The position numbers and the translations under genes were made by a program. Shown here piece by piece: positions 7,016 through 47,206 of a stretch of 64,000 nt of DNA. The stretch is from Hydrogenimonas cancrithermarum. Lineage in GTDB: Bacteria; Campylobacterota; Campylobacteria; Campylobacterales; Hydrogenimonadaceae. The first letter of the stretch is position 1. The number at the start of each line of letters is the position of its first letter. The stretch spans positions 1,006,501 through 1,070,500 of the forward strand of contig NZ_AP027370.1 of the NCBI RefSeq assembly GCF_030296055.1, read 5' to 3'. The notes beneath the pieces are model-generated. The model saw only the letters and a list, made by a program, of their open reading frames with translations, made no database searches and was not told the origin of the DNA.

Positions 7016-7036
7016 TTGAAGCCTTGGTTTGATATG

Positions 7037-7101
7037 CAAATCAAAATAATTATACTTTTAATTGATATAGATGTCAAACAAAATAAACATATTTTGATTT
7101 G
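7037..7101. repeat. 11-bp inverted repeat upstream of the ATPase gene
   Basis: CAAATCAAAAT at 7037-7047 is matched by ATTTTGATTTG at 7091-7101 in very AT-rich DNA just upstream of the ATPase start. It could be an operator pair for autoregulation or a trace of a mobile-element end. No function can be shown from sequence. Confidence 0.5.
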
Positions 7102-7143
7102 AAGATCAAATATTTTATGCTGCTGAGTACTAGAAATATCTGA

Positions 7144-7180
7144 AAAACGATGCGATGCATCTATGCAATCGCATCGTTTT
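7144..7180 (-). terminator. strong intrinsic terminator after the DUF481 gene
   Basis: A 13-bp perfect stem (AAAACGATGCGAT, loop of 11, ATCGCATCGTTTT) lies 47 bp downstream of the DUF481 stop codon. A and T runs flank the stem on both sides, so it may also stop plus-strand transcription. Confidence 0.85.
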
Positions 7181-7226
7181 TGTTCTCTCGCAAAACACTC
7201 TGTCTATGTTTTAGTTTCGGTTCCGG

Positions 7227-7937
7227 TTAGAAGCTGTAGACGATGCCTGCCGTCGTCGTCGTATCGGTTTTTTTCTTTCCGACAGGCGGGACATTGTCGT
7301 ATTTGAGCTCGAACCCGAGGCGGAACGACAGTTTGTCGACAATCAGTATCTTCAATCCGAGATCGATGACGGTTTCGACATCTTTGACCCGTTTCAAGTT
7401 GTCCAAAACATCCCATTTGGCCGTAAACTGATTGTCGTTGGTCATGTTGTAGGTATAGTCGAGTCCGCCTTTGAGATAGTAGAAGTTGTCGGATGGCTCG
7501 TCCGTGAAGTTGCTACGTCGATACTGCAGACCCGCCTTGCCTTTGAGAAACTGCTTCTCATCTTTGAAAATGTTGTAACCGAGACCGGCACCGAAGTTAT
7601 ACTGCTGGTTGTACCCCTCGAACGTATTTCTGAGAGCGGACGCTTCGCCGTAGGTGAAAACGTCGCCGTTGTAGTAGTGGTTGACATCGTAAAAGAGTCG
7701 ATAGCGCTCGTCGCTCTTCTCTCCGCTCTTTTCACCGTAGAGGATATCCACTTTCGTATGCATGTCCGTCTTTTCGTCGTATTGGTAGTCGTTTTTATAG
7801 ACACCGTTGAAGGACTGGCTGTCGGTATTGCCCGTCGAACCGATGTATCCCAGTTCGACCGACTGCTTGAAGGTTCCCGCCGGCTCTGCCGCCCATAAAG
7901 AACACCCTGCCAATGCGATTAGCGCCACTCTTTTCAT
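7227..7937 (-). CDS. DUF481 outer-membrane beta-barrel protein
   Basis: The protein is about 236 residues with an N-terminal signal peptide (MKRVALIALAGCSLWA) and alternating aromatic/polar beta strands ending in Phe (AGIVYSF), typical of outer-membrane barrels. It matches the DUF481 (YdiY-like) family, whose function is little known. A LAGC motif in the signal region could suggest a lipoprotein, but cleavage after LWA fits better. The ATG at 7937 has an AGGAG eight bases upstream and is preferred over the ATG at 7943. The last 69 codons are duplicated at 105-315. Its -10 region (TGTTAAAAT) closely resembles that of the divergent rimO. Confidence 0.85.
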   Translation of the reverse strand: MKRVALIALAGCSLWAAEPAGTFKQSVELGYIGSTGNTDSQSFNGVYKNDYQYDEKTDMHTKVDILYGEKSGEKSDERYRLFYDVNHYYNGDVFTYGEASALRNTFEGYNQQYNFGAGLGYNIFKDEKQFLKGKAGLQYRRSNFTDEPSDNFYYLKGGLDYTYNMTNDNQFTAKWDVLDNLKRVKDVETVIDLGLKILIVDKLSFRLGFELKYDNVPPVGKKKTDTTTTAGIVYSF

Positions 7938-8055
7938 ATTCATTACTCCTCTTGTAAAAAATACCGGATTTTAACACAATCTTCGTGAACTTATCGCGAA
8001 GTCGGACGCTTTTCAGATTATGTTAAAATTCGAAAAAAAAGAGTCTGGAAAATAT

Positions 8056-9369
8056 ATGAACAAAAAATTGCATATCGTCTCTTTGGGATGCACCAAAAAC
8101 CTTGTCGATACCGAAGTGATGCTGGGCCGGCTGAAAAGATTCGAGATGACCGATACACCCGATGAAGCCGATGTCATCATCGTCAACACCTGCGGATTCA
8201 TCGATGCGGCGAAAGAGGAGAGCATCCAGACCGTACTCGATCTTCACGAAAAGCGGAAAGAGGACTCCGTTCTCGTGATGGCGGGATGCCTCAGCGAACG
8301 CTACAAATCCGAACTGCAAAAAGAGATGCCGGAGGTGGATATCTTCACGGGTGTCGGCGACTACGACAAAATCGACGAACTGATCGTCAAACGCCAGAGC
8401 CGTTTCACGCCGCACGTCTTTCTGGCCGACGAAAACCACGAACGTGTCGTCACCGGATCGCGTTCGCACGCTTACATCAAACTCGCGGAAGGGTGCAACC
8501 AGACCTGCAGTTTCTGCGCCATTCCCGGTTTCAAGGGCAAACTTCACTCCCGTACGCTCGAAAGCGTCGTCAAAGAGGTGAAACACCTCGTCGACCGGGG
8601 TTTCTTCGACTTCAGTTTCATCTCTCAAGATTCCAGCAGCTATCTGCGCGACCTCGGGACCGATGACGGGCTCATCGAACTGATCGGGGCGATCGAAGGG
8701 GTCGAAGGCGTCAAGAGCGCACGTATCCTCTACCTCTATCCAAGCACCACCTCGCCGGAACTGATCGAGACGATCGCCGCTTCGAAAGTTTTTCAGAACT
8801 ATTTCGACATGCCGATCCAACATATCGATCCACGTGTGCTCAAAACGATGAAACGGGGCATCGGGAGCGACAAGATCAAAACGCTCCTGAACGCCATGAA
8901 AGCCGTACCGGAGAGCTTTGTACGCACCAGTGTCATCGTCGGCTTCCCGACCGAAACCGAAGAGGAGTTTCAGGCGCTGTGCGACTATATCGGAGATTTC
9001 GGTTTCGATCGTGTCAACATTTTCGAATATTCCGATGAAGAGGGGACGAGCGCTTTCGAACTGACGCCGAAGATCGATGCCGAGACCATCCACAAACGCG
9101 CCGAAAAACTTGGAAAGATCGTCAAAAAGAGCACCGAAGCGTCCTTGCGAAAAATGGTCGGAAAAAGAGTCGAGATGATCGTCGAAGGCCCCAGTGAAGA
9201 ACACGACTTTCTCCTTTCGGCCCGGCCACTTCTGTGGGCCCCGGAGATCGATGGAGAAGTACTGATCAACGACAGCGAAATCGAAGGTGTGACATTCGGA
9301 AACGCTTACCCTGTCGAAGTGACCGAACTGGTAGGGCGACAGCTTCTCGGGCGCATCGTCGCCGACTGA
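8056..9369 (+). CDS. rimO: ribosomal protein S12 methylthiotransferase RimO
   Basis: RimO adds a methylthio group to a conserved Asp of ribosomal protein S12, using S-adenosylmethionine and two [4Fe-4S] clusters. The 437-residue protein has the N-terminal cluster cysteines at 12, 46 and 78, the radical SAM motif CNQTCSFC at 147/151/154, and a C-terminal TRAM-like domain. Assignment to RimO rather than MiaB rests on the start (HIVSLGCTKNLVDTE) and on the presence of a separate MiaB at 13485. The ATG at 8056 has GGAA upstream, and the longer frame from 8020 adds a non-conserved stretch. tilS follows after 7 bp, so the two probably form one transcript. Confidence 0.95.
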   Translation: MNKKLHIVSLGCTKNLVDTEVMLGRLKRFEMTDTPDEADVIIVNTCGFIDAAKEESIQTVLDLHEKRKEDSVLVMAGCLSERYKSELQKEMPEVDIFTGVGDYDKIDELIVKRQSRFTPHVFLADENHERVVTGSRSHAYIKLAEGCNQTCSFCAIPGFKGKLHSRTLESVVKEVKHLVDRGFFDFSFISQDSSSYLRDLGTDDGLIELIGAIEGVEGVKSARILYLYPSTTSPELIETIAASKVFQNYFDMPIQHIDPRVLKTMKRGIGSDKIKTLLNAMKAVPESFVRTSVIVGFPTETEEEFQALCDYIGDFGFDRVNIFEYSDEEGTSAFELTPKIDAETIHKRAEKLGKIVKKSTEASLRKMVGKRVEMIVEGPSEEHDFLLSARPLLWAPEIDGEVLINDSEIEGVTFGNAYPVEVTELVGRQLLGRIVAD

Positions 9370-11397: not shown

Positions 11398-12351
11398 TTA
11401 ATTTCCCGTCTCTTCCGCGACGAGCTCCGCCATCGTCTCGATCGGATCGAATCTGTGCAGGCTCGCTTCCATAAAAAGTTCATCTCCGATATAGCGAACC
11501 AGGTCACTGCCCAGATCGTCCATATCGAAGATCGTCACCTTTTCGATAAACTCGTGGGGATATCTGTCATCGTGATAAAATTTTGCGATCGCATCTTTCA
11601 TCTCTTCGAAAAGATCGAGATTGTACTCGAGAAGTTCAAGCGCGGAGGCATCCTCGACACCACGCTCTTTCGGTTCGAGCTCCTCTTTGAACTCTCCCAG
11701 CATATCGACATCGCTGATGGGCTCGACATCTTCTCCGATCTCCTCGAGATCGAATGCGAGTTCTTCGAGCCCCTCGTCCTCCTCTTCCATCATCTCCTCC
11801 TTCACTTCACCATCCGCAACGAGAAGGACCTGGGCATACCACATTCTCTCTTCCGAGAAGACGGCGAGAAAAAGTGTACCGCTTTGGTGCAGCACAAAAA
11901 GCCCCGGGCGCGCTTCGAGCAGCGGCCGGCACCTCCGGTAGAGCAACACGAAGGGAGAGTAGAGAAAATCGAAATCGACACCTTCGAACTTCTTTTCGAA
12001 CCATTTCATCTCGACCAAAGAGGTGTAGGCGAGCCAGCTCTCATCGATACAAATGGAGTGGACGAGGGATGCATCGACACCGAAACGTTCGAACGAACTT
12101 TTCGAGCATGACGGAAGCGCTCCCTGGTTGATGGTATCGAGCATCGCGGAGACATAGATTTTGGGATAGGTACGACGGATCTCTTCGAGCCACTCTCCGA
12201 GTTCACGTTCCTTTCCGATCGCTATCGTCCTGCGCTCTTGAATGTCGACACCGCCTTCTTCGACATAACCGAACGCCGCTTCGATCTTCTCATCGTCCAG
12301 ATAGAAAAGAAGGGCCGTTTTCGGCCAGAAATAGCGTCGCAGTTTGCCCAC
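11398..12351 (-). CDS. PilM-like actin-fold protein of a pilus or transformation system
   Basis: The 317-residue soluble protein is followed directly by PilN- and PilO-like genes, which is the main reason for the PilM assignment; the actin-like ATPase motifs are not obvious. Residues about 175-235 form an acidic insert (EEMMEEEDEGLEE and similar) not usual in PilM. The start is GTG at 12351 with AAGGG six bases upstream. A TATAAT lies at 12388-12393. The role would be cytoplasmic support of a type IV pilus or competence pseudopilus. The family call is tentative. Confidence 0.55.
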   Translation of the reverse strand: MGKLRRYFWPKTALLFYLDDEKIEAAFGYVEEGGVDIQERRTIAIGKERELGEWLEEIRRTYPKIYVSAMLDTINQGALPSCSKSSFERFGVDASLVHSICIDESWLAYTSLVEMKWFEKKFEGVDFDFLYSPFVLLYRRCRPLLEARPGLFVLHQSGTLFLAVFSEERMWYAQVLLVADGEVKEEMMEEEDEGLEELAFDLEEIGEDVEPISDVDMLGEFKEELEPKERGVEDASALELLEYNLDLFEEMKDAIAKFYHDDRYPHEFIEKVTIFDMDDLGSDLVRYIGDELFMEASLHRFDPIETMAELVAEETGN

Positions 12352-12387
12352 ACCTTACCCTTACATGAAAAACTTGAATTATCTTGA

Positions 12388-12393
12388 ATTATA
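12388..12393 (-). promoter_or_regulatory. -10 element of the pilM-like operon
   Basis: TATAAT on the minus strand, 37 bp before the GTG start of the PilM-like gene. No clear -35 is visible. Confidence 0.5.
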
Positions 12394-12408
12394 ATAAACT
12401 ATTTTTGC

Positions 12409-12876
12409 TTAAGGATGCCTCTGAAACAACGAGCGATAGAGGTTCTGGAACTTTTCGTACATATCTCTTGCACGCTCCACCAACTCCTTCTCGGTCAATT
12501 TCGTCGGTGCGAGTTTCTCGTATCTCTCCATCATCACTTCGCACATCAATTTGATGCGCATACGGTCGGCATCGCTGATCGGAGGATGATCGGCGATCGT
12601 CTCGATCTGACGCAGGTACGCTTCACCCTCCCGGATATAGTCGATGAAGCGCTTCGCCACTTCCGTCTGGGTCATCACGGTAAAAGCCATGCGGTTGTAA
12701 CGGTCGAGTTCATACGCCTCTTTTGCCAGCGTGTAGGCCTCGTCGTACTCGCCCATCAGATAGTGCCACTTCGCTTCGAACGCCTTTTCATAAGAGGGGT
12801 TGGTCCATGCAAAGATCGCCATACCGGCCAGGAGCAAGAGCGCCAAAAGCGCATAAACCATTCTACTCGACTGCAT
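12409..12876 (-). CDS. small membrane-anchored protein, unknown function
   Basis: The protein is about 155 residues with one N-terminal membrane helix (about 7-25), then a helical region with a TPR-like hydrophobic pattern (YDEAYTLAKEAYELDRYNRMAFTVM). The ATG at 12876 lies inside the end of the upstream DUF374 gene (14 bp overlap), so the two are probably translationally coupled; the longer frame runs antiphase to that gene. It is last in the HP0268-miaB-DUF374 run. I do not recognise a named family. Confidence 0.7.
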   Translation of the reverse strand: MQSSRMVYALLALLLLAGMAIFAWTNPSYEKAFEAKWHYLMGEYDEAYTLAKEAYELDRYNRMAFTVMTQTEVAKRFIDYIREGEAYLRQIETIADHPPISDADRMRIKLMCEVMMERYEKLAPTKLTEKELVERARDMYEKFQNLYRSLFQRHP

Positions 12877-13492
12877 GTTCCAACATCCTTTCGCGCAACA
12901 TTTTCTTGGCGGCACCTTTGTCCATTCCGGTGACATCGATCGGCTCGGAGATATAGAAGTCGATCGCCGAAAAGGGTTTGGGAACGGTAAATCTGTCCCA
13001 GCTGCCCGCCTGCCAATACGTTTGGGGACGGACATTGACGATCACGATGGGAATGCCCGCTTTTTGCGCAATAACGACGGCACCATCGGAGACCGAATGG
13101 CGCGGACCTCTCGGACCGTCCGGGGTGATACCGACATGCTCGCCCTCTTCCTTCACCGCCTTGATGGCCGAAATGAGCGCTTTGACCGCCCCTTTGCGCG
13201 ATGAACCGCGGATCGTTTTCATTCCAAGCAACCGGGTCAGGCGCGCGACGATCTCACCGTCGAAATGGTCACTGATCATGATATTGAGTTTTCGAGAAGT
13301 TCCGAGTTTGGCGTAGATAAAAGGGGCCATCAGCAGTTCGCCATGCCAAAAGGCGATCACGACGGGTGAATCCGGAAATTCGCCCTTGAAGTGCCACCGC
13401 TTTCTGGCGGTGAGATACAAAAACCACATAAGCGTCCAAATAAGAGGCGGGAGGGTCCAAAGCGCGAGCGCCCTTGCGAACCGCTTACGCAA
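12863..13492 (-). CDS. DUF374 lysophospholipid-acyltransferase-like protein
   Basis: The 209-residue protein has an N-terminal membrane segment and acyltransferase motifs: AFWHGELL near residue 48, where the usual HxxxxD appears to be replaced by a WHGE form typical of DUF374, and [12 protein letters not shown] near 122-133. The family is related to lipid A and phospholipid acyltransferases and is thought to act at the inner membrane; the substrate is not known. H. pylori has the same neighbour order (HP0268, HP0269 miaB, HP0270 DUF374, from memory). Its start overlaps the miaB stop by 8 bp. Confidence 0.85.
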
Positions 13493-32791: not shown

Positions 32792-32853
32792 AATCGACTC
32801 CTCAATTTTTTTGCGTTAGTATACCATTCTATATTTTGAGGTAAGATATCCGA

Positions 32854-36656: not shown

Positions 36657-38423
36657 GTTTCAATTCCCATAGGGTACTTCAAAATAGTGTCCTGCAGAAG
36701 TACGACGTATTTCTTATTAGTTTCAATTCCCATAGGGTACTTCAAAATTGACGAGGATCGTCGGAAAAGGGCCGGGAGCGAAACGTTTCAATTCCCATAG
36801 GGTACTTCAAAATGATGACTGGTGGAAAGATGGTTTTTACGAAACAATGTTTCAATTCCCATAGGGTACTTCAAAATGCTTCGCCTGGGTTTGAAACTCT
36901 TTCGTTCCAAACTCAGTTTCAATTCCCATAGGGTACTTCAAAATAAAGTTGATTATCTGTTCCGTATTTTACGGAATACTTAGTTTCAATTCCCATAGGG
37001 TACTTCAAAATTCAGTTCTGCAACCAATGAAAATATCTTGATCGAGTTTCAATTCCCATAGGGTACTTCAAAATGCTTCGCCTGAGCTTGAAACTCTTTC
37101 GTTCCAAACTCAGTTTCAATTCCCATAGGGTACTTCAAAATATATATCCGCAGTTCGGACAGACGTATTTATTCAGTTTCAATTCCCATAGGGTACTTCA
37201 AAATTGTACGTTCGACTTTTTTCATGCCAAGCGTGGCAGTTTCAATTCCCATAGGGTACTTCAAAATCAATCGTACTTCCGTAAATTTCATCTTTCATTT
37301 GTTTCAATTCCCATAGGGTACTTCAAAATGTAGCTTCCGAAATCTGTCCGCCCACTCGTCGATGGGTTTCAATTCCCATAGGGTACTTCAAAATTGATAG
37401 AACCATAGTATGGGTCGTACCTGAAGCAGTTTCAATTCCCATAGGGTACTTCAAAATACAGGTCGGTGTCCTCCATGACGTCGCCAGGGACAGTTTCAAT
37501 TCCCATAGGGTACTTCAAAATCCAAGACATTCTTTCAATGTCGTCACGCTCATCAGTTTCAATTCCCATAGGGTACTTCAAAATACTCTTTTAGTATATC
37601 GAAACCATGCTCATCAAGAAGGTTTCAATTCCCATAGGGTACTTCAAAATCGTAAACAGTGTTTAGGATCTTTGTAATGTTGTCATGTTTCAATTCCCAT
37701 AGGGTACTTCAAAATTCGCCTAAGCTTGAAACTCTTTCGTTCCAAACTCAGTTTCAATTCCCATAGGGTACTTCAAAATAAAAGAATGGCCCGTTACTTA
37801 CGGCTGGGGAGCTTAGTTTCAATTCCCATAGGGTACTTCAAAATCAGTTGTCGAAAATTTTCAATCGATTACAGCAGTGTTTCAATTCCCATAGGGTACT
37901 TCAAAATCTACTCATCATGGACTATCAACGGTAGAAAATTCCGTTTCAATTCCCATAGGGTACTTCAAAATCCAGTCTGTGGTAACATTTACCCACTCTG
38001 TATCAGGTTTCAATTCCCATAGGGTACTTCAAAATTAGCTTCCGAAATCTGTCCGCCCACTCGTCGATGGGTTTCAATTCCCATAGGGTACTTCAAAATG
38101 CTTTTCGCTTTTGCAATGCCTGCCGGACCCGAAGTTTCAATTCCCATAGGGTACTTCAAAATAAGAAGCTCATCGAGGAGTATACTTCCGCATCGTCAGT
38201 TTCAATTCCCATAGGGTACTTCAAAATGAGAGGATATATATATTCCTGTCGATGTAGATGGGTTTCAATTCCCATAGGGTACTTCAAAATAAAAGTCAAG
38301 TTGATCTTTTATCCTTGCACTGAAATCTGGTTTCAATTCCCATAGGGTACTTCAAAATGAAGTTAGTGATAGTTGAAACGTCTATCTCAATCGTGTTTCA
38401 ATTCCCATAGGGTACTTCAAAAT
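36657..38423 (-). CRISPR. CRISPR array 2: 28 repeats of 29 bp
   Basis: There are 28 repeats with 27 spacers of 33-39 bp. On the minus strand each repeat starts ATTTTGAAG and ends GGGAATTGAAAC, differing from array 1 only at positions 4 and 8. Transcription is on the minus strand from the leader at 38424-38560, next to cas1. Four spacers match or nearly match array 1. Two more families recur within the array: three variants at 36878, 37075 and 37716, and two copies at 37330 and 38036. Confidence 0.98.
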
Positions 38424-38560: not shown

Positions 38561-39568
38561 TTACTTGGGTTTACCCTGATAAAAAGGACGATACTCGTCA
38601 TATTCACAAATGCAGCGTTTAAGGTGATTGACCTCGCGACGGATTATCTGTCTCCAAGTGAGCCGCTGCTTACCAATAGTAATCTGTTCGGTTAGTTTGC
38701 CGATCATCGCCGTTTCGATTGTCTTGATGGCGTCGTTGGTAAAACGGATGCGGCCGGCATTCACTTGGAACGATCTGGAGGTGATCTGCTCACGGTTGAG
38801 CAGGGTGAAGATGAGATTGTCTCCAATGACGGGTTTGAAGATCTCCGCAACATCCAGATGAAGGCTCAAAGCCCGATAATTTGGCTCATGTAAAAACCCG
38901 ATGCGCGGATCGAGTTCTGTTTTGTAGATTTCACTAAGTACCACGTTGTAAATACGAGTGTTGACATAGGATATCATCGCGTTAATCTTATCGGCTGGTG
39001 GGCGTTTGGTACGGATGGTAAACTTGAAGCTGCGCTGGTTTTTGACAATAGTATTCCAACGCTGGTAGTACTCTTTTTTAAACGCACCCTCTACCGCCAT
39101 CACTTCACCGATGCTTCGGGCACTTTCCAGCGCTTCCAAATGGGGTTTTTCTTCCATCTCCACCCCACGTCGGATACAATTGTAGACGCCATTGCGTATC
39201 TGTCCCTCGGTGAAGGCTTTGGCAATATAAAGACGCTGTTTCGGATCGTCGAAAGCCCGTACCTGTTGCAGCAGCACGAAACCGCTTTTATTGACGCTAT
39301 TCGGGGTATTGGGATAGAAGTTTCCTCTAAAACTCTGGTAAGGGCTGAAGAAATGCAACAGGATATTATTGTCAGCCAGAAAAGCTAGAGTGTAACTGTC
39401 AATCTCCACTCTGGCTAGTACATAGATTTCATCGATGGCGTTTATGGGTAAAATTTTCGCCTGCACCAACGTCTCATCTTCGTTATAACGGTCGAAATAG
39501 AGATTATTGTCTCGGCGTCTAAGCCTCCCGGGACTCAGTATAAAATGAGTACGGTCATTTTTTTGCAT
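38561..39568 (-). CDS. cas1: CRISPR-associated endonuclease/integrase Cas1
   Basis: Cas1 is the integrase that inserts new spacers together with Cas2. The 335-residue protein has the type I-B form, with likely metal ligands Glu150, His217 (GFLHEPNY) and Glu232. It ends about 137 bp from the array, with the leader between. It is the last gene of the cas operon, 8 bp after cas2. The C-terminal third is about 80 percent identical to the fragment at 573-965. Confidence 0.97.
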   Translation of the reverse strand: MQKNDRTHFILSPGRLRRRDNNLYFDRYNEDETLVQAKILPINAIDEIYVLARVEIDSYTLAFLADNNILLHFFSPYQSFRGNFYPNTPNSVNKSGFVLLQQVRAFDDPKQRLYIAKAFTEGQIRNGVYNCIRRGVEMEEKPHLEALESARSIGEVMAVEGAFKKEYYQRWNTIVKNQRSFKFTIRTKRPPADKINAMISYVNTRIYNVVLSEIYKTELDPRIGFLHEPNYRALSLHLDVAEIFKPVIGDNLIFTLLNREQITSRSFQVNAGRIRFTNDAIKTIETAMIGKLTEQITIGKQRLTWRQIIRREVNHLKRCICEYDEYRPFYQGKPK

Positions 39569-39576
39569 ATTTGCTC

Positions 39577-39855
39577 CTAACTGAAAAGCGGCTCGTTCTT
39601 GTCGATACCGATGACCTCCCTACGAGTATAGCTGGGTTTGTCGAATTCGTATATGACGATGGAATCAAGATCGTGTTCGCACTCTTTTTTTAGCTTCGCT
39701 TTGAGCTTTTTGAGATCACTTGGTCGAATCTCCCCTTCGAAAACCGAATATTGCACCCTGGGCAGATACTTCTCGACCGCTTTCCGAATGCTCCGGCTAT
39801 TATCTTTTTCCTTCATGGAACGATCGGCAATGTCATAAAATAAAATCACATACAT
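39577..39855 (-). CDS. cas2: CRISPR-associated protein Cas2
   Basis: Cas2 bridges Cas1 dimers in the spacer-integration complex. The 92-residue protein has the ferredoxin-like start MYVILFYDIADR with Asp8, the core YLPRVQYSVFEGEI and the tail RREVIGIDKNEPLFS. It lies between cas4 and cas1, giving the order cas4-cas2-cas1 rather than the more common cas4-cas1-cas2. Confidence 0.96.
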   Translation of the reverse strand: MYVILFYDIADRSMKEKDNSRSIRKAVEKYLPRVQYSVFEGEIRPSDLKKLKAKLKKECEHDLDSIVIYEFDKPSYTRREVIGIDKNEPLFS

Positions 39856-39864
39856 ATGTAACCT

Positions 39865-40365
39865 TCAATAACAGTAGTTACGGTATCCGCATTTGGCGCA
39901 AAAGGCGATCTTTTCAGGCTTGGGTGGCCTTGGCTCATCCAAAAACCGGCTCATCTCTTCAAGTAACGCCTCCATCATCCGCATATTTTCCTCATTTCCT
40001 TCGACGAAAAGCACCTTTTTGCCACTGATGACCTTACCGTCGATTTTCCTGAGTTTAAGATTCTTTTTGAGCAGGTACATGTAAAAGAGCAGCTGCATCT
40101 TCGCACCTTCCGGATTTCTAAAGCTTTTTTTGTATTCCGTGACTACGTAATGACCCCGTTCTTTGCCAATTTTGTCGAACTTGAGGTTGGAAAAGGCGAA
40201 ATCCTCAAGCTGTTTTTCCTCCTTGATCTCCGCAAGTGCCCGCCCCATAAGGATATTTTCATCGTTTTGGTCCGCTGAAATTCTGTGGGCGAAGAGCCAT
40301 GCCTCTCTCTTGCAGGTAACGTAATACTGCACCGTCGTACCGGTGATGAGATCGGGGTCATACAT
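39865..40365 (-). CDS. cas4: CRISPR-associated exonuclease Cas4
   Basis: Cas4 trims prespacers and helps select those with a PAM. The 166-residue protein has a first cysteine (TCKREAWL), a RecB-type nuclease motif (VVTEYKKSF) and the C-terminal iron-sulfur cysteines CAKCGYRNYC. The ATG at 40365 overlaps the toxin gene by 8 bp, which links translation of the toxin-antitoxin pair to that of the adaptation genes. The cas2 start is 9 bp downstream. Confidence 0.95.
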   Translation of the reverse strand: MYDPDLITGTTVQYYVTCKREAWLFAHRISADQNDENILMGRALAEIKEEKQLEDFAFSNLKFDKIGKERGHYVVTEYKKSFRNPEGAKMQLLFYMYLLKKNLKLRKIDGKVISGKKVLFVEGNEENMRMMEALLEEMSRFLDEPRPPKPEKIAFCAKCGYRNYCY

Positions 40366-40621
40366 AATGAAATCTGCATTGGGCGACGATCAGACAATCA
40401 CCGTCTACCTTGTAAACCAGCCGATGCTCGTCGGTAATTCGCCGGGAAAAGTAACCGGCTAGATTACCTTTGAGCATCTCCGGTTTGCCAAGCCCATGAT
40501 TGTCTTGAGGATTGCGCGTGATATCTTTAATGAGCAGGTTGATCCGTTTGAGCACTTTTTTATTGGTCTGCTGCCAATGGAGATAATCTTCCCAGGCAAT
40601 GTCGGAAAACGCTACAATCAC
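40358..40621 (-). CDS. yoeB: YoeB/Txe-family mRNA interferase toxin inside the cas operon
   Basis: YoeB toxins cleave mRNA in the ribosomal A site. The 87-residue protein aligns along its length with E. coli YoeB: catalytic Glu48 (GKPEML), Arg67 (EHRLVY), His85 and Tyr86 (CRFHY), with one extra Val at the end. All key residues are present, so it should be active. The start overlaps the antitoxin stop by 4 bp and the end overlaps cas4 by 8 bp, so it is fully built into the operon. Confidence 0.93.
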   Translation of the reverse strand: MIVAFSDIAWEDYLHWQQTNKKVLKRINLLIKDITRNPQDNHGLGKPEMLKGNLAGYFSRRITDEHRLVYKVDGDCLIVAQCRFHYV

Positions 40622-40872
40622 TCTTCTACCAACTCTCTTTCCTGAAACCTTCCGGCTTCAATCTGACGAATCGACTCCAACAAACGCTCCCTGTTGGCAG
40701 GAGTCGAAAGCAAATAGAGCGTCTCCTTCATGCTGTTGTATTCATCCACCGAAATAAGTATCGCCTTGGCATCGTTTTTGGTAGTGATAAGATACTCCTC
40801 GAAATTTCGATCCACATCCTCAATCAACGATTTGAGATTGTTTCTAGCATGAGAGTAGTTGACGGCTTGCAT
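40618..40872 (-). CDS. yefM: YefM/Phd-family antitoxin inside the cas operon
   Basis: The 84-residue protein has the YefM/Phd DNA-binding N-terminus (VNYSHARNNLKSLIEDV, ILISVDEYNSMKETLYLL) and a flexible Glu-rich C-terminus that would wrap the toxin. Partner and order (antitoxin first, 4-bp overlap) are typical. The ATG at 40872 has AAGGAG upstream; a longer frame into cas3 is rejected. It lies just downstream of two identical palindromic operators, so autorepression with YoeB is expected. Confidence 0.92.
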   Translation of the reverse strand: MQAVNYSHARNNLKSLIEDVDRNFEEYLITTKNDAKAILISVDEYNSMKETLYLLSTPANRERLLESIRQIEAGRFQERELVEE

Positions 40873-40884
40873 TTTTTCTCCTTT

Positions 40885-40931
40885 TTGACAAAATATTGTC
40901 AAATTGTAGCCTATTGACAAAATATTGTCAA
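40885..40931 (-). promoter_or_regulatory. yefM-yoeB promoter with duplicated operator
   Basis: On the minus strand, TTGACA (40931-40926), a 17-bp spacer and TACAAT (40908-40903) form a near-consensus sigma-70 promoter. Two copies of the 18-bp imperfect palindrome TTGACAATATTTTGTCAA lie at 40914-40931 (covering the -35 and the cas3 stop codon) and 40885-40902 (covering the start site). They are 29 bp apart. This fits a Phd/YefM autoregulated promoter and lets the pair, and cas4-cas2-cas1, be transcribed independently of the effector genes. Confidence 0.85.
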
Positions 40932-43120
40932 AACAATTCGAACAACCCTTCAATTCCCTGCTCCTCTTCAATCAAAAAGCCTGTTTTTTCGCTGTATATT
41001 CCCTGATATTCTTCCAAATAGAGCAGTCCAAACAGATCGCTTTTCTTAAATATCACACCACTTTTTGTGATATCTCTCTTCTTGATATTGAGAATATGTG
41101 GGAGAAACGATTTGAACATTTTCTCTTTTGCACGCTTCAATTCCCATCGCCCAAACTCTTTTTCAAGTTCGAAATATCGCCGTTCCATTTCACGCAGATC
41201 GACGCCGAGCACCACTGAATCGGTATAGTCGTCTTCGAGCCGGAAAATTTTCCGTAAGGCCTCGCCAATTTTCGGAAAGTCAAATTTTTCGATCGCTTTC
41301 AAAATTTCGTACCGGTCCGACAGGGTCAAATCCAGTGTGGCAAAAAAGCTCTCTACCAGTTTCAGAATCTGCCGCTCCTCTATCCCGTCACACTCCTGCA
41401 AAGCGATCAAAAGATGATTGCGCGTCGCGCTCATCAAAGAACTGTCATAAATCTCATATCCCAACTTATCGAATATCTTCACTTCCGCCTGCCCTCGCAA
41501 CCCTTCACGATTGATCCGACCCGCAGTTTGAATAATGGAGCTAAGAGGCGCGAGCTCTCTGAACCCTATATCGAAATCAAGGTCCACTCCCGCTTCCACC
41601 ACTTGAGTGGAGATCAGCACTTTCTCTTCTACCCGATTGGACGTTTTTGTACGTAATGCACTCAAAGTCTTTTCGCGATCGACCGGCAACATATAGGAGT
41701 TGAGTGCATAGAGCCGTTCCTCTTCGATATTCTCTTTCAAACGCCCATACAACCGTTTGGCATTTTTGATAGTATTGACCACACAAAGCACCGAACGTCC
41801 TCTGCCGGCGGCATCGATCACTTCCATTGCCAGCTCTTCAAGCTTTCGTTCCTCATCGGTTTCTTTTAGATCGATCCATTTCAGAATGTAACGGTTTTTA
41901 CTCCGAAAAAGCACCTTCTTATCCGCCAGTTCGGGAACGTTTCTGGCCACGATCGGCATCGTAGCGCTCATCAACACAAAAACTGTGCCTAATATCTTTG
42001 CCAAAGGCTCGAAAAGTTGCTGCATCACCTTCCACAACTCAAATGGAATCGCCTGCACCTCATCGAGCACCACCACGCTGTTTCGCAAACTTTGAAATTT
42101 GATGTTGTCACTGTTGTGTTCACTGAAAAGCGCGAAAAAAAGCTGATAGAAAGTGGTTACAATAAAAGGATGGCTCCAGCTCTCTACCAAATATTTGATC
42201 CTGTCATAGTCGTTGTGCCCCTCTTCGTCCATCTCGGGATAGGCCACCCTGTAATGATGGGCCGTGATGCCTCCTGAAAAAATCTCCGAAAAAATCGCGA
42301 CAGTTTGGTCAATGATACTGGTAAACGGAATAGCGTAAATGATACGTTTTTTACCCTCTTTTTTGGCGATAGTCAATGCCAGTTCCAAAGAGGCAAGTGT
42401 TTTTCCTGCACCTGTAGGCGCCGTGATGGTTACCACCCGTTGGGGGTCTTCCTTCCAATTCCTCACAATATGATGCGCCGCTTTAGAGCGAAACGACGTT
42501 GTATCGAAACCTTTTCTCTTTTTGTAGTGTTCGAGATCTTCGACCGAACACTTCAGAGCAGGAGGATGAAAGGTCTTCGAAGTGATTGCTTCATATTTAT
42601 CAGCGAAAATCAGTTTTGAATAGAGCAATTTCTGGTGGATGAAATCTTCCGGACCCATCTGCAGCTCGTCGAAATCGAAACCCAAGTCTTCCAACAGTTC
42701 TTTGTCCATTCCGGGAAGGTTCCACCATCTTTCAACTTCCTCGTTCGCCAACAACTCGGCATATTGCCGCTGCCAAAGATTCCAGGACCATCCCATCTGC
42801 ACCGAAAGCGTTTCAGCCAACTTTTTTCTACTTTTTAACGGCGTATGGTGCGAAAAGATCGCATCGGAAATCATAAGCAGCTCTTTGGATGAGAGTCTAT
42901 CGGCATTGGCCAATAAAAAGGCCAGTGCCGAAACACCTGCATGAGGATCCGCCGAATCGCTCTTGTTGCGAATGTAGCACTGGAAAGATTCGGTACACTT
43001 TCCTAGATCATGAAACTTTGCGGCCAAGATAAAGAGCCTATCTCCATCAAAAGCTTCTATCCGGCCGATATGATCGATCAGCCTTTTACCCGGGTGTGAA
43101 AGAATTTCGCTCAACTCCAT
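40928..43120 (-). CDS. cas3: CRISPR-associated helicase/nuclease Cas3
   Basis: Cas3 is recruited by Cascade and degrades target DNA. The 730-residue protein has an N-terminal HD nuclease (His37-Asp38 in KFHDLGK, HH near 91), Walker A TAPTGAGKT (about 233-241), DEVQ box at 353-356, motif III SAT at 385-387 and the helicase C-terminal domain with QTAGRINREG. It follows cas5 with a 10-bp overlap. Its stop codon lies within an operator of the toxin-antitoxin pair. Confidence 0.97.
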   Translation of the reverse strand: MELSEILSHPGKRLIDHIGRIEAFDGDRLFILAAKFHDLGKCTESFQCYIRNKSDSADPHAGVSALAFLLANADRLSSKELLMISDAIFSHHTPLKSRKKLAETLSVQMGWSWNLWQRQYAELLANEEVERWWNLPGMDKELLEDLGFDFDELQMGPEDFIHQKLLYSKLIFADKYEAITSKTFHPPALKCSVEDLEHYKKRKGFDTTSFRSKAAHHIVRNWKEDPQRVVTITAPTGAGKTLASLELALTIAKKEGKKRIIYAIPFTSIIDQTVAIFSEIFSGGITAHHYRVAYPEMDEEGHNDYDRIKYLVESWSHPFIVTTFYQLFFALFSEHNSDNIKFQSLRNSVVVLDEVQAIPFELWKVMQQLFEPLAKILGTVFVLMSATMPIVARNVPELADKKVLFRSKNRYILKWIDLKETDEERKLEELAMEVIDAAGRGRSVLCVVNTIKNAKRLYGRLKENIEEERLYALNSYMLPVDREKTLSALRTKTSNRVEEKVLISTQVVEAGVDLDFDIGFRELAPLSSIIQTAGRINREGLRGQAEVKIFDKLGYEIYDSSLMSATRNHLLIALQECDGIEERQILKLVESFFATLDLTLSDRYEILKAIEKFDFPKIGEALRKIFRLEDDYTDSVVLGVDLREMERRYFELEKEFGRWELKRAKEKMFKSFLPHILNIKKRDITKSGVIFKKSDLFGLLYLEEYQGIYSEKTGFLIEEEQGIEGLFELF

Positions 43121-43806
43121 ATAACACGGCTACCTTCCACTTCGTACACGCCCACATCGCGACAACGAATCGAACGGCCTGATGTCTCTACCAAATAATC
43201 CCTGAAACCTCCGAATTCTCGCCCATTTGCGATCCGGGTCGCCATCCGCACATCGGTATAGGATTTCCCATCCTCCAACTCGAAGTCGACATCCAGAGGA
43301 ACCATGGAATCCACCATTACATCATCATATCGGATCGAACACCCCTCAGCAATTCCCAAAAATGAATAGGAGGCAAGACAGAAGTTGACTCCCATATAGA
43401 GAGGATAATAAGCCCTTCCATCTTCCATCGCGAAGAGTAGACGGTCGCGGACATCTTTTCCCACCTCCGAAAGATCGCAGTAGATTCTGTAATGTGGTGA
43501 CACCAGAAGCTCCCGGTAAAACTGTTTACGCCCTTTACGAAAGCCGTTTCGCTCCTTGGACGGATCGAGCTCAATGAGAGCATCCTTGATACCATTGAAG
43601 CAAAATTGCCGTTTCCCCTCCAGTCGCTCCACAACCACAGCATACCTCATGGCATTGAACGACAGATAATCTTGCACCCCCATAATGGCTCCCAGCATTC
43701 CCATCACAGTGGTCTTGGGCGGTACGGGGTAGGTGAGTGAACTGTAATTCGTGGCCGGATGGCTGAAATGACCATAATCGGCCTCGATACGCCAAACCAA
43801 TACCAT
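43111..43806 (-). CDS. cas5b: Cascade subunit Cas5, type I-B
   Basis: Cas5 caps the 5' handle of the crRNA in Cascade. The protein is about 231 residues, with the N-terminal WRIEADYGHFSHPATNYSSLTYPVPPKT block (G-rich RAMP-type fold). I start at ATG 43806, which lies 2 bp after the cas7 stop; ten further upstream codons would overlap cas7. It sits in the standard order cas8b-cas7-cas5-cas3. Confidence 0.93.
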   Translation of the reverse strand: MVLVWRIEADYGHFSHPATNYSSLTYPVPPKTTVMGMLGAIMGVQDYLSFNAMRYAVVVERLEGKRQFCFNGIKDALIELDPSKERNGFRKGRKQFYRELLVSPHYRIYCDLSEVGKDVRDRLLFAMEDGRAYYPLYMGVNFCLASYSFLGIAEGCSIRYDDVMVDSMVPLDVDFELEDGKSYTDVRMATRIANGREFGGFRDYLVETSGRSIRCRDVGVYEVEGSRVIWS

Positions 43807-43808
43807 CG

Positions 43809-44702
43809 CTATATCCCAAAGTCCCTGCGTTGCCACGTTTCGGGTATCGGTTCGATCGTGAGGGCTTCATCGTACCAATACTCCACCATGGCGATTTTGT
43901 CAGCGGCTTTATCCATCTTTTCAATCAGTCGGATGAGATCGATGCGGTATTCATCGATGGTCCGGATTTCGTTTCGCGCCTCCTTGTTGCTCACAAGATC
44001 CACCAGGTTATCGAGTGCACCGATGTAATGGCCTGGTTCTTTATAGGTGATTTTGAGCAAGAAACGGGGCATCTGTCCAAATTTGCTCCGAGAGATCAGG
44101 TTTTTTGTCCCCATCCAGAGCCCTTCAAGTACCGCTTTCACATCCTCTTCGCCGAGTTCGGTATCCGTTGCGGCCAAGGCATTGACGATGCCGTAGGTAC
44201 CGAAGATCGCATAAGGCAGGATGTATTCTTCCCGAAAAGTTTTATTCTCTTTGCCCGCCTGACTGGCGAACGCTCCCGTCCCTTTGACGAAGACAATCTC
44301 CGTCTCATGCAGCGACTTACTCATCTTGAACTGCATGGGACCGGTCAGGCTGTTGGTCTGCTTTTCAACGGGAAAGACTCCACCAAAAGCTCTCACATCG
44401 ATACACTTTTGCAAAATGGCACGCTCAACGTCTTCGGCGGCACCCGCTACGGTCTTGACTCGCTGTTTTCCGTCAGCCAGTCCCTTCCCACTCACCTCTT
44501 CCTTGACGAAAATCTCATATCCTTTGGCATCCAGATAATCGCGAATCGTCCGTTTGATCCGTACGTCGCTCACCAATGCTCTACGGCTGACCTCATCATA
44601 CCTCGGCGCATTGGCATTGAGTATGTCGCCATTTGGATTCCAGTTTTCTCCATCCCACAAAAAAAGCAGTTCCGCTTGCTTTGCAATCTCTTTTTCAGCC
44701 AT
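43809..44702 (-). CDS. cas7: Cascade backbone subunit Cas7 (Csh2 type, I-B)
   Basis: Cas7 forms the helical backbone along the crRNA. The 297-residue protein has the Csh2 start LLFLWDGENWNPNGDILNAN, ALVSDVRIKRTIRDYL, and the middle region AFGGVFPVEKQTNSLTGPMQF. The ATG at 44702 overlaps cas8b by 8 bp; the longer frame to 44732 is less likely. Confidence 0.95.
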   Translation of the reverse strand: MAEKEIAKQAELLFLWDGENWNPNGDILNANAPRYDEVSRRALVSDVRIKRTIRDYLDAKGYEIFVKEEVSGKGLADGKQRVKTVAGAAEDVERAILQKCIDVRAFGGVFPVEKQTNSLTGPMQFKMSKSLHETEIVFVKGTGAFASQAGKENKTFREEYILPYAIFGTYGIVNALAATDTELGEEDVKAVLEGLWMGTKNLISRSKFGQMPRFLLKITYKEPGHYIGALDNLVDLVSNKEARNEIRTIDEYRIDLIRLIEKMDKAADKIAMVEYWYDEALTIEPIPETWQRRDFGI

Positions 44703-46437
44703 TGTTTTCCTCCTTTTTCGGTCTGTTTTCACGATACGTTTTTAAATCCACAGCTCCCATGACAAAGGCGATGTTTGCCTGATCAATCGAAACGATATCC
44801 TCTTTCTTCAATGTCTCTTTCACCTCGGCATAGAGCGTCATCAAATCATCGTAGTCGCTTCCATACATCGAGTATTTGCGGCTCGCCTCGTAGATCTTGC
44901 GAAAGACACGGTCACTGTTTTGCATCGACAGCGCCCCGATGCCGTCGAGATATTTCTGTAGCGCATCGCTACCGTTTTGGTACTGCCAGTCCATCACAAA
45001 TTTCGCCAACGCTCCCAATACATAAAATTCCCGTGCCCTCGGCTTTTGTCGAAGCAGCTCCACCGCTTCGAACTTCTCTTTCGCCAATTGCGAAAAACGC
45101 TTACCTTCCTGCATCCTCACCTCCTTGTTCTCATGTAAATAGTCGTTTACGTTAAAACCCACTACGCCGAGTTTTCTCAGAAAATCCAAAAATCTCTGGT
45201 GCTTTTTGAAATCTATATCTTCGATATAGTATCCGTGAACGATCTCAGAAAGTTCCCGGCGTTCGCCGTTTTCCCGATTGTCGCCATAAAATATTTTCCT
45301 GGCGACCCAACGCTCAAGCAGTGGCATTGTCGGAATCGATTCTTTGCCAAATATCAGTTTTGCCAGCAGCAATCCATCTTCAATATAGTCTCCTAGATAG
45401 ACCCTATGGAGTTCCCGATTCTTGACTTTGATAAAGCGTGACGCTTTGCCTTCCATTCCATCCTCGTCCATTAGGGCAAACGCCCGTACAATCCTGGAAG
45501 GTGCCACATCTTCGATGAGATGGTGCAGATCGATGGCATTGTTCTGTTTGTGGGCAAAAAGAAAACTTAGCAGCACCTTTTTGCCCATCCGTTCACCTAC
45601 CAATCCTTTTGCCAGCCTCTGCAACTGCTTTTCGGCCATCACTTTACTTTCGGCACTCCCTGAATCCTCCCTGGAAAGCTGTGCCAGCTTGTCAAAAAAG
45701 TGTCGCTTCTCCTCAAAAAAGAGTGTTGGGAGTAGATAATAATTCAAACCGAATAGAGAAAAACGAAATATCTTCGCTTCGAAAAGTTTGACAAACCCCT
45801 GTTTCACCAGACATGCTTCGTCACGCCCCAAAGGAAGCAGTCGGTATTTGGTGATCTTCTGCAAAGGCTTGGGCAATTCGTTGACACTACAGAAATTGAG
45901 TCCTGCATCATATCCGATAACCATATCGTCGCTAAAATAGCTCGCACCTCTTTTCGTAAATACCCCTTCGCAAACCTTCTGCGCATAATTCTGCGCAACT
46001 TCAGGAAAAAGCTCATAAAAGGTCTTCCCATCCACTGTGAGGGCCAAATAGAGGTTTTTGATCTCCTTGTAGGGTTCAAGCAGGGCTTCGATCCTATCAG
46101 CATCGATGCGTTCATCAAATTTTCTGAGCTCTTCACGTCTGGCTTCGTCGAGGTATCTACGCATATTTTTAAATGCTTTTTTCAGCGCCTCTTTTAGTTT
46201 GTCAGGAGTATAGAAGAAAAAAGGATAGAGATTTCCACCGTTTGAAGAGGTCACCCGTAAAAAGAGTCTGGACCTAATCGCTTCTTTGTCGTAAATCTCC
46301 ACCCGATCCATATCGTCGATATCTACCAGTGCAATCTTTTCAATCGTCTTGACGTCGATCTGATTGTAATCCTGTAACGCTTCGTCCCGATACGCCACAC
46401 CCACATCCCGAAATATTTTTACCAGATCTGCCATCAC
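44695..46437 (-). CDS. cas8b: Cascade large subunit Cas8b (Csh1 type)
   Basis: Cas8b is the large subunit thought to read the PAM and recruit Cas3. The 580-residue protein matches the Csh1 form in length and position rather than by strong motifs. A segment with four possible metal-binding residues is not obvious. It overlaps cas6 by 4 bp and cas7 by 8 bp. With Csh2-type Cas7 it defines subtype I-B. Confidence 0.88.
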   Translation of the reverse strand: MMADLVKIFRDVGVAYRDEALQDYNQIDVKTIEKIALVDIDDMDRVEIYDKEAIRSRLFLRVTSSNGGNLYPFFFYTPDKLKEALKKAFKNMRRYLDEARREELRKFDERIDADRIEALLEPYKEIKNLYLALTVDGKTFYELFPEVAQNYAQKVCEGVFTKRGASYFSDDMVIGYDAGLNFCSVNELPKPLQKITKYRLLPLGRDEACLVKQGFVKLFEAKIFRFSLFGLNYYLLPTLFFEEKRHFFDKLAQLSREDSGSAESKVMAEKQLQRLAKGLVGERMGKKVLLSFLFAHKQNNAIDLHHLIEDVAPSRIVRAFALMDEDGMEGKASRFIKVKNRELHRVYLGDYIEDGLLLAKLIFGKESIPTMPLLERWVARKIFYGDNRENGERRELSEIVHGYYIEDIDFKKHQRFLDFLRKLGVVGFNVNDYLHENKEVRMQEGKRFSQLAKEKFEAVELLRQKPRAREFYVLGALAKFVMDWQYQNGSDALQKYLDGIGALSMQNSDRVFRKIYEASRKYSMYGSDYDDLMTLYAEVKETLKKEDIVSIDQANIAFVMGAVDLKTYRENRPKKEENNG

Positions 46438-47114
46438 AATATCTCCAAAAATCCCAGATTTTTCATCGTGTCGCTTCCCATCCCGGTTTTCAGAAGAAGA
46501 TTCAGCATCTCTTTGTCCGCTTCTATCTCATATCTAGCATTCCAAGCAACATAGGGAATATTTTCGTACCAGAAAGTCTGAGGTTTTGGACTTTGCCATT
46601 TGGGAGTGACGATCAGTTTTCCTTCATAAGGTTTTCCAAGCAAGGCTTCAAACTTTTGCAGCGAATGCTTGAGAACGATCCCAGTGTGTCGGTTTTCACC
46701 GGGTTCTAGAAAGATCTTACGGCCCGTCAGCGGATTTTTGACAGCGGCACATACAAATCCTCGTACCTGCAATCTGCCTTCTTCTGGAGCTTCACGTTCC
46801 ACCAGACTTACCGACGTCTGGGCAAAATGTACCTCTCCAAGCTTCAACCCCTCTTTGAGTACTGCCATGGCAAGCTCTTTTTCATGCAGAGGATTGAGTG
46901 CGGTGAAGTCGATCTCAAAACGGTCTTCGAAGTAGCGGATGCGAAAATTGGTGCTCTTGAAGCGTTTGCCGGTAGAGTGGGCATAGCCTTCATGCTCCTT
47001 CGGAGGTAGACAGGTATACGAAAAGGCTTGAAAAAGGCGGGCCATGCTCCTTCTTATCCGCACTCTTTCAGTGGAGGTTCTAGCAACGATATGAAGCACT
47101 CTTGATCCTTTCAA
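46434..47114 (-). CDS. cas6: crRNA-processing endoribonuclease Cas6
   Basis: Cas6 cuts the repeat RNA to leave the 8-base 5' handle ATTGAAAC. The 226-residue protein ends with the Gly-rich loop GMGSDTMKNLGFLEI that is typical of Cas6. A His near the N-terminus (EHEGYAHSTG, about 40-46) is a candidate catalytic residue. It is the first gene of the operon, about 60 bp after a TATAAT. The same enzyme should process both arrays because the handle and central dyad are identical. Confidence 0.9.
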   Translation of the reverse strand: MKGSRVLHIVARTSTERVRIRRSMARLFQAFSYTCLPPKEHEGYAHSTGKRFKSTNFRIRYFEDRFEIDFTALNPLHEKELAMAVLKEGLKLGEVHFAQTSVSLVEREAPEEGRLQVRGFVCAAVKNPLTGRKIFLEPGENRHTGIVLKHSLQKFEALLGKPYEGKLIVTPKWQSPKPQTFWYENIPYVAWNARYEIEADKEMLNLLLKTGMGSDTMKNLGFLEIL

Positions 47115-47172: not shown

Positions 47173-47178
47173 ATTATA
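47173..47178 (-). promoter_or_regulatory. -10 element of the cas operon
   Basis: TATAAT on the minus strand, about 60 bp before the cas6 start. The -35 region is A/T-rich without a good match. Confidence 0.5.
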
Positions 47179-47206
47179 CTGTTTTTTGGTTTATTTTGTT
47201 AAACAA

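Follow-up and report, generated by a model that had tools for sequence, protein, structure and literature searches.

A YefM-YoeB toxin-antitoxin module inside a type I-B cas operon of Hydrogenimonas cancrithermarum, between cas3 and cas4, and the inserts at the same joint in related operons

The effector and adaptation parts of CRISPR-Cas systems are reportedly exchanged as units, to judge from the titles of work by Garrett in 2011 and Almendros in 2014. Toxin-antitoxin genes are also associated with cas genes in several ways. In Sulfolobales, vapBC pairs are interspersed in cas cassettes and have been suggested to help maintain CRISPR-Cas (available part of PMC4390879). CreTA is described as a type VIII, CRISPR-regulated RNA toxin-antitoxin system (available part of PMC12737573), and HEPN genes are sporadically embedded in CRISPR-Cas neighbourhoods (available part of PMC3710099). 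Here we analysed a stretch of 64,000 nucleotides of the H. cancrithermarum genome (contig NZ_AP027370.1, positions 1,006,501 to 1,070,500; from here on, the window), which carries a complete YefM-YoeB module, self-contained by its own predicted promoter and operators, inside a cas operon. The reading we prefer, with a probability of roughly 0.55, is that a self-contained addiction cassette entered a recombination joint between cas3 and cas4, where it would incidentally stabilise the operon and add a promoter to cas4-cas2-cas1.

Anatomy of the operon and of the embedded module

The cas genes of the window lie on the minus strand in the order cas6-cas8-cas7-cas5-cas3-(yefM-yoeB)-cas4-cas2-cas1. 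They comprise cas6 (46434..47114; Pfam PF01881, 7e-10), a cas8 of the TM1802/Csh1 type (44695..46437; PF09484 over cut-off, 1.6e-17), a cas7 corresponding to Csh2 of type I-B (43809..44732; TIGR02590 over cut-off, 262 bits), cas5 (43111..43836; PF09704, 1.3e-9) and the HD nuclease-helicase gene cas3 (40928..43120; Pfam and NCBIfam), directly upstream of yefM-yoeB; after the pair follow cas4 (39865..40365; PF01930, 6.3e-36), whose start codon lies within the 3' end of yoeB, cas2 (39577..39855; PF09827, 4.6e-20) and cas1 (38561..39568; PF01867, 1.8e-70). A promoter of the whole operon, TTAACA-18-TATAAT, is predicted at 47173..47202 on the same strand (11/12). With cas8b/csh1, a csh2-type cas7, cas5, cas3, cas6 and cas4-cas2-cas1 the operon is of type I-B, the NCBIfam model for Csh2 scoring over its cut-off and those for Cas5h, Csh1 and Cas1b below theirs. 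Downstream of cas1 there is a CRISPR array of 28 repeats on the plus strand (36657..38423). A second array of 70 repeats lies at 1100-5549 of the window on the minus strand, more than 30 kb away from the cas operon; its repeats each differ at 2 bases from those of the array next to cas1.

The toxin gene yoeB (40358..40621, minus strand, GTG start) encodes an 87-aa protein of the mRNA interferase family, assigned to Txe/YoeB by matches over cut-off to both PF06769 (YoeB_toxin, 2e-34) and TIGR02116 of NCBIfam, and similar to PDB 2a6q_E (2.4e-29). Just upstream, overlapping it by 4 bp, yefM (40618..40872, minus strand, ATG start) encodes an 84-aa antitoxin of the Phd/YefM kind (PF02604, PhdYeFM_antitox, over cut-off at 1.1e-22; PDB 2a6q_A, 9.8e-16), with a match to the YefM equivalog NF008499 that stays below cut-off (72.5 of 121 bits). 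The overlap between yoeB and cas4 is 8 bp. The coordinates and both overlaps had already been reported in an initial annotation of this DNA, and all of them hold when the open reading frames are checked. That annotation also listed Glu48, Arg67, His85 and Tyr86 of YoeB, which we take to be the catalytic residues, and the aligned E. coli YoeB of 2a6q has identical residues at the four positions.

A sigma-70-type promoter, TTGACA-17-TACAAT, is predicted for yefM-yoeB at 40903..40931 on the minus strand, with 11/12 matches. An equal or better one appeared in 3 of 500 shuffles of the leader, and between 38400 and 47400 one other site, upstream of cas6, equals this score; the scan returned 17 promoter-like sites against a shuffle mean of 11.4. 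Two palindromic 18-bp sites, the predicted operators, lie over the promoter as in YefM-YoeB systems and are conserved in relatives. Operator 1, TTGACAATATTTTGTCAA, at 40914..40931, takes in both the -35 box and the stop codon of cas3; operator 2, again TTGACAATATTTTGTCAA, at 40885..40902, covers the predicted transcription start near 40896. The operator pattern has 4 matches in the window, a number that none of 100 window shuffles reached. Across the 2.38-Mb genome the exact pattern TTGACAANNNNTTGTCAA is confined to the two yefM-yoeB sites, and none of the window shuffles contained it. The near-consensus promoter and the two operators proposed initially are thus present by score, shuffle and genome-wide checks; both operators had however been placed over the cas3 stop codon, which is true of operator 1 and not of operator 2.

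The position of the pair within the operon and the precedent of CreTA and CrePA (available part of PMC12737573) suggest that failure of the CRISPR effector might derepress or free the toxin, either in a CreTA- or CrePA-like way or as abortive infection, and the initial annotation had likewise imagined that failure of Cas interference could be turned into growth arrest. Systems of the CreTA/CrePA kind have a crRNA-like antitoxin with (degenerate) repeats beside the toxin and a guide to the toxin promoter. No repeat-like sequence with up to 9 mismatches was found inside the cas operon, more degenerate repeats being beyond the reach of the search, and the only one outside the arrays is located at 32833, with 8 mismatches. 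The module is also unmatched by the 96 array spacers (best 22 of 34 bases). Since neither ectopic repeats nor matching spacers were found, control of this type was rejected; as the module has moreover palindromic operators of its own, we consider a suicide response coupled to immunity extremely improbable, and this part of the initial proposal is left without support.

Inserts recur at the cas3-cas4 junction and at other joints of block exchange

Related operons were gathered through a cas3 search, Cas4 searches and further fetched stretches; a related cas3 was present in 31 of the 398 genomes of the order at an E-value of 1e-40 or below, and the same-genus set contained 18 genomes, that of the window included (loci and genomes bear our own L and G handles). 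Operons with a Cas4 at least 56% identical were called clade I, and diverged I-B-like operons, with a Cas4 at 33-48%, clade II. In many loci both cas genes and inserts owe their names to similarity with proteins of the window or with other proteins found, and some were named by eye. The count at the cas3-cas4 junction leaves out L148, L065 and L184 (no cas3), L023 (contig ends after cas3) and L200 (different gene order), together with other cas3 clades, namely L030 (empty junction), L032-L034 (no cas4 seen), G074 (no locus retrieved) and L031 (a HipA-like reading frame after cas3, cut at the locus end). Four distant, partially annotated loci (L083-L086) show no obvious insert at this junction. 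The Hydrogenimonas MAG locus L065 holds a cas4-cas2-cas1 at 77-90% identity to that of the window, which puts it roughly level with the same-genus genomes.

The junction is occupied in 9 of the 32 clade I operons in which it is visible, and 8 of these 9 inserts contain toxin families: YoeB twice, ParE, YafQ-like, MazF, GNAT and Fic. Besides the window, yefM-yoeB is found in G040; G250 has yefM-parE, G092 TacA-GNAT, G366 MazF with an 83-aa partner without assigned family, G187b a YafQ-like pair below curated cut-offs, and G518 Fic, while the Sulfuricurvum MAG locus L077 combines MazF, YefM-ParE and an AAA-RloB pair. The insert of G116 is a 155-aa gene without assigned family. In clade II the junction is filled in 8 of 18 operons, three times by toxin-antitoxin pairs (TacA-GNAT in G294, an RHH-like gene with MazF in G479, and in G404 MNT with a HEPN-like partner detected only below cut-off) and five times by other genes (a YhcG nuclease in G413 and, by eye, a look-alike in G514; Bro-N in G395; SEC-C protein relatives in G520 and G515). 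The initial annotation had proposed a survey of related genomes, regarding absence of the pair from the orthologous I-B loci of all relatives, together with a silent internal promoter, as a sign of chance insertion; the pair of G040 stands at the same place and other relatives hold other modules, alongside 23 empty junctions out of 32. The nearest same-genus cas3 genes (G016 and G011, 56-57% identity) run straight into cas4 without the pair, and since the empty loci include these orthologues, the module must be dispensable.

Some further observations concern the same loci. In G011 a YefM-like/ParE-like pair (ParE by eye) stands about 0.5 kb upstream of cas6, outside the operon (L123:718-1255, oriented). 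Two operons with an insert have a gene seemingly split in two frames, namely cas3 of G294 (L181, oriented 6401-8806) and cas1 of G116 (L138, oriented 12077-13078).

The distribution of occupancy was compared with trees. On the Cas3 tree it needs 8 changes against a shuffled mean of 8.1. The Cas4 tree shows some clustering, with 6 changes (30 of 500 shuffles were as low), and groups G116, G250 and G187b together despite their different inserts. Because the starred branches force only 4 (Cas3) or 3 (Cas4) changes, some of the insertions may not be separate events. A search for GNAT genes of the TacA-GNAT type in 175 genomes from a single family of bacteria gave 11 near-full-length matches with at least 46% identity, four of which lie inside cas operons (G518, G366, G092 and G294; 1.5 kb flank). 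Another stands directly after cas2 in G520, that of G441 lies, tentatively, beside a partial cas4-like match, and five are without a cas gene.

Two other junctions of the operon are occupied as well. Of 23 clade I loci, 6 have gene-sized inserts between cas6 and cas8 (MNT-HepT in G040 and G116, a PIN gene in G520, PemK in G092, a PD-T4-5-like gene in G016 and a look-alike in G518), and 5 of 30 have inserts between cas4 and cas2 (TacA-GNAT in G366 and G518, antitoxin-like orphans in G348 and G437, a SEC-C protein in G250). Counting gaps of at least 300 bp in clade I, we found them at 22 of 85 module boundaries versus 2 of 114 core junctions, i.e. cas8-cas7, cas7-cas5, cas5-cas3 and cas2-cas1 (Fisher p=1.5e-7, only a guide, the loci being related). 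Three of the 22 boundary gaps (L130, L135 and L145, all cas6-cas8) hold only frames of up to 56 aa, and the short insert of L129 (188 bp) falls under the limit. Both core gaps that exceed it lie between cas8 and cas7 (L138 and L141). They contain a 149-aa frame, similar in position to frames of G260 and G296, and a cut frame of cas8, with no recognised toxin-antitoxin gene. In clade II, where only two core junctions were counted, the numbers are 0 of 6 for cas5-cas3 and 0 of 11 for cas1-cas2; the rule is broken at least once, in G479, where a ParE-like pair immediately precedes cas5, and perhaps again in G137.

A few of the genes met at these junctions deserve mention in their own right. The PD-T4-5-like defence gene at cas6-cas8 occurs in two bacterial families (L122:8672-9397 and L144:538-1269, oriented; L144 by eye). 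A family of 155-179 aa has members at different junctions of three cas operons (L138:10823-11290, oriented; L194; L196), and one copy of it gave no Pfam match over cut-off (one sub-threshold match) and no NCBIfam or PADLOC match. In G092 (L128, outside the 30 loci) a type III-B-like operon, identified by eye, appears to stand between cas4 and a distant cas2. Between cas4 and cas1 there are a HipA-type gene of 502 aa that carries an additional part at its N-terminus (L187:4750-6258, with a copy in L184 by eye) and, in another operon, a gene with RhuM and Fic domains (L189:3496-4461).

The occupied junctions coincide with the places at which operons have exchanged parts. G296 and G266 share cas6 (94% aa) and cas4-cas2-cas1 (96-97%) and only 28-44% in cas8-cas7-cas5-cas3; their nucleotide similarity breaks off just short of the cas6 end, by 4 bases in G296 and 13 in G266, and returns 17 bases ahead of cas4. 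Between G518 and G288, cas4 is 97% identical in amino acids, and high similarity begins and ends at its boundaries; in G518 this gene stands between Fic and TacA-GNAT. G520 and G288 have 90% nucleotide identity from cas8 to cas4 and 80-81% on either side. From these breakpoints it follows that the operon behaves as four blocks, cas6, cas8-cas7-cas5-cas3, cas4 and cas2-cas1, and the inserts sit at the joints cas6-cas8, cas3-cas4 and cas4-cas2.

It is possible to hypothesize that in Campylobacterota I-B operons interchangeable toxin-antitoxin modules lock the recombination joints, so that a block swap or deletion would cause antitoxin loss and arrest, and competing blocks would carry their own addiction modules; pairs at exchange joints may then act as addictive locks on pieces of an immune system. 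Exchange needs no insert, as the joints of G296 and G266 have none. The recent exchange in G518, an insert-bearing locus, does not favour a lock, and we find this idea rather unlikely. The strongest rival to the addiction-cassette reading is instead a neutral or selfish passenger: breakpoint joints would accept any cargo that spares the cas genes, and toxin-antitoxin modules, common and resistant to deletion, would be found there without benefit to CRISPR. It is the strongest because the joints accept other cargo as well, from the type III-B-like operon of G092 to the YhcG nuclease, Bro-N, SEC-C proteins and the PD-T4-5-like gene, and it agrees with the coincidence with block exchange and with the sporadic occupancy on the Cas3 tree. 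Against it, occupied cas6-cas8 and cas3-cas4 junctions co-occur (4/6 vs 1/17, one-sided p=0.008). We hold a mere passenger role to be possible, if on the doubtful side, and the copies of the module discussed below also bear on it.

Origin of the cassette and its possible effect on the cas locus

The genome of the window has one further yefM-yoeB copy, the stand-alone L002 (G000:C1:280923-281183), which is decayed: the -10 region and one operator are missing, with one near-match to the operator pattern kept, the yefM frame is lost and YoeB has no equivalent of Glu48. An intact copy in G009 is the nearest relative of L002. Of 14 comparisons of the window copy with intact relatives, 7 had a computable dS; they give dN/dS of 0.04-0.09, values that are rough, dS being high or saturated (>1.3). 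An intact and constrained cassette beside a decayed stand-alone sibling speaks against a mere passenger, and so does the 8-bp overlap with the downstream gene in both cas-embedded YoeB modules, since 29 further YoeB loci yielded only 2 with any possible overlap (-29, if the earliest start codon is taken). In favour of the passenger is the wide spread of YoeB, with matches in 98 of 398 genomes of the order and in 766 plasmid records. Plasmid and phage searches found no donor and gave only more distant YoeB relatives, with up to 64% identity.

A tree built from 31 YefM-YoeB pairs places that of G040 with the stand-alone copies of G015 and G197 (99/94), apart from the window pair; starred branches force 2 changes, and 0% of 200 bootstrap trees unite window and G040. 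A single insertion common to both is disfavoured by this tree, whose most economical reading is that the two modules are independent insertions.

The same promoter type with two operators recurs, with small deviations, in the stand-alone modules of G015, G197, G177, G093 and G081 and in the cas-embedded ones of G040 (yefM-yoeB) and G250, where the YefM, at 74% identity over 46 residues, is paired with ParE. For this comparison 13 loci were tried and 8, window included, were returned; G091, G049 and G310 are outside it, and G009 and the decayed L002 were read separately. Since stand-alone relatives have the same promoter and operators, the regulatory part must have arrived with the module, and an origin of the promoter from the cas context was rejected for the same reason. 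No terminator-like site was listed between cas3 and yefM in the scan of the cas operon region, so that read-through from the cas6 promoter is also expected. It had been suggested initially that cas4-cas2-cas1 are controlled separately from the effector genes; transcription of the module can indeed run into them, but with read-through expected too the separation holds only in part.

Promoters of 11-12/12 are found in 7 of the 10 two-gene inserts at cas3-cas4 (the others being G479 with 8/12, G404 with 7/12 and L077 with a 5-bp leader), while the 7 single-gene inserts and 10 empty junctions score up to 9/12. Some transcription of cas4-cas2-cas1 from insert promoters is therefore likely. One could go farther and suppose that the module owes its retention to its promoter, which would drive these genes at a level raised when stress degrades YefM. 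The presence of such promoters before antitoxins of unrelated families, and the cas4 start embedded in the toxin end, are consistent with this recruitment; however, the promoter came with the cassette, as stand-alone modules show, and 23 of 32 operons do without such an insert, which makes it improbable.

Returning to the addiction cassette, we infer from the sequences that the window YoeB is toxic, that the pair represses itself, that its promoter is active and that the locus is stabilised. A self-contained cassette would have entered the cas3-cas4 joint of a modular type I-B operon, as unrelated toxin-antitoxin modules have done repeatedly at the cas6-cas8, cas3-cas4 and cas4-cas2 exchange joints, and YefM and YefM-YoeB would repress the internal promoter. 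If the cassette were lost by deletion or block replacement, the stable toxin would remain without fresh antitoxin; such cells would be disfavoured, and stabilisation of the cas locus would be a by-product. Degradation of YefM would open the internal promoter, from which cas4-cas2-cas1 would be transcribed too. That yefM-yoeB guards the cas locus is plausible, considering the repeated insertion and a copy intact here while its stand-alone sibling decayed. The interest of these operons is that one kind of cas operon holds several unrelated toxin-antitoxin families at its cut-and-exchange points, and that natural pairs of filled and empty operons make it testable whether toxin-antitoxin modules at CRISPR loci stabilise or hitch-hike.

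Comparison with known systems

A published report of these Campylobacterota inserts was not found in the open-access literature, where the Sulfolobales precedent was. The E. coli YefM-YoeB of 2a6q and its relatives are like the window pair in both proteins, active-site residues, gene order, overlap and palindromic operators over the promoter, the operators being set beside those of E. coli by type only. Unlike it, the window pair is embedded in a cas operon and overlaps cas4 by 8 bp.

CreTA and CrePA are similar in being toxin-antitoxin systems linked to cas genes, with a proposed role in guarding CRISPR-Cas, but depend on a crRNA-like antitoxin together with the effector complex (available part of PMC12737573), whereas the window has a protein antitoxin with its own operators and no repeat-like element was found in its operon. 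The vapBC pairs of Sulfolobales come closest in that they too are protein toxin-antitoxin pairs inside cas cassettes, and both this arrangement and the idea of maintenance are already published; that case is archaeal, with one toxin family and a type III-D example (available part of PMC4390879). The window and its relatives differ in being bacterial and of type I-B, with several unrelated families at block-exchange joints. With respect to the exchange of functional modules of CRISPR-Cas, the joints described here carry toxin-antitoxin modules. Judged against the open-access literature, the apparent novelty lies in the setting, a bacterial I-B operon, in the variety of families found at a single junction, in the return of one of them there and in the coincidence with the joints of block exchange.
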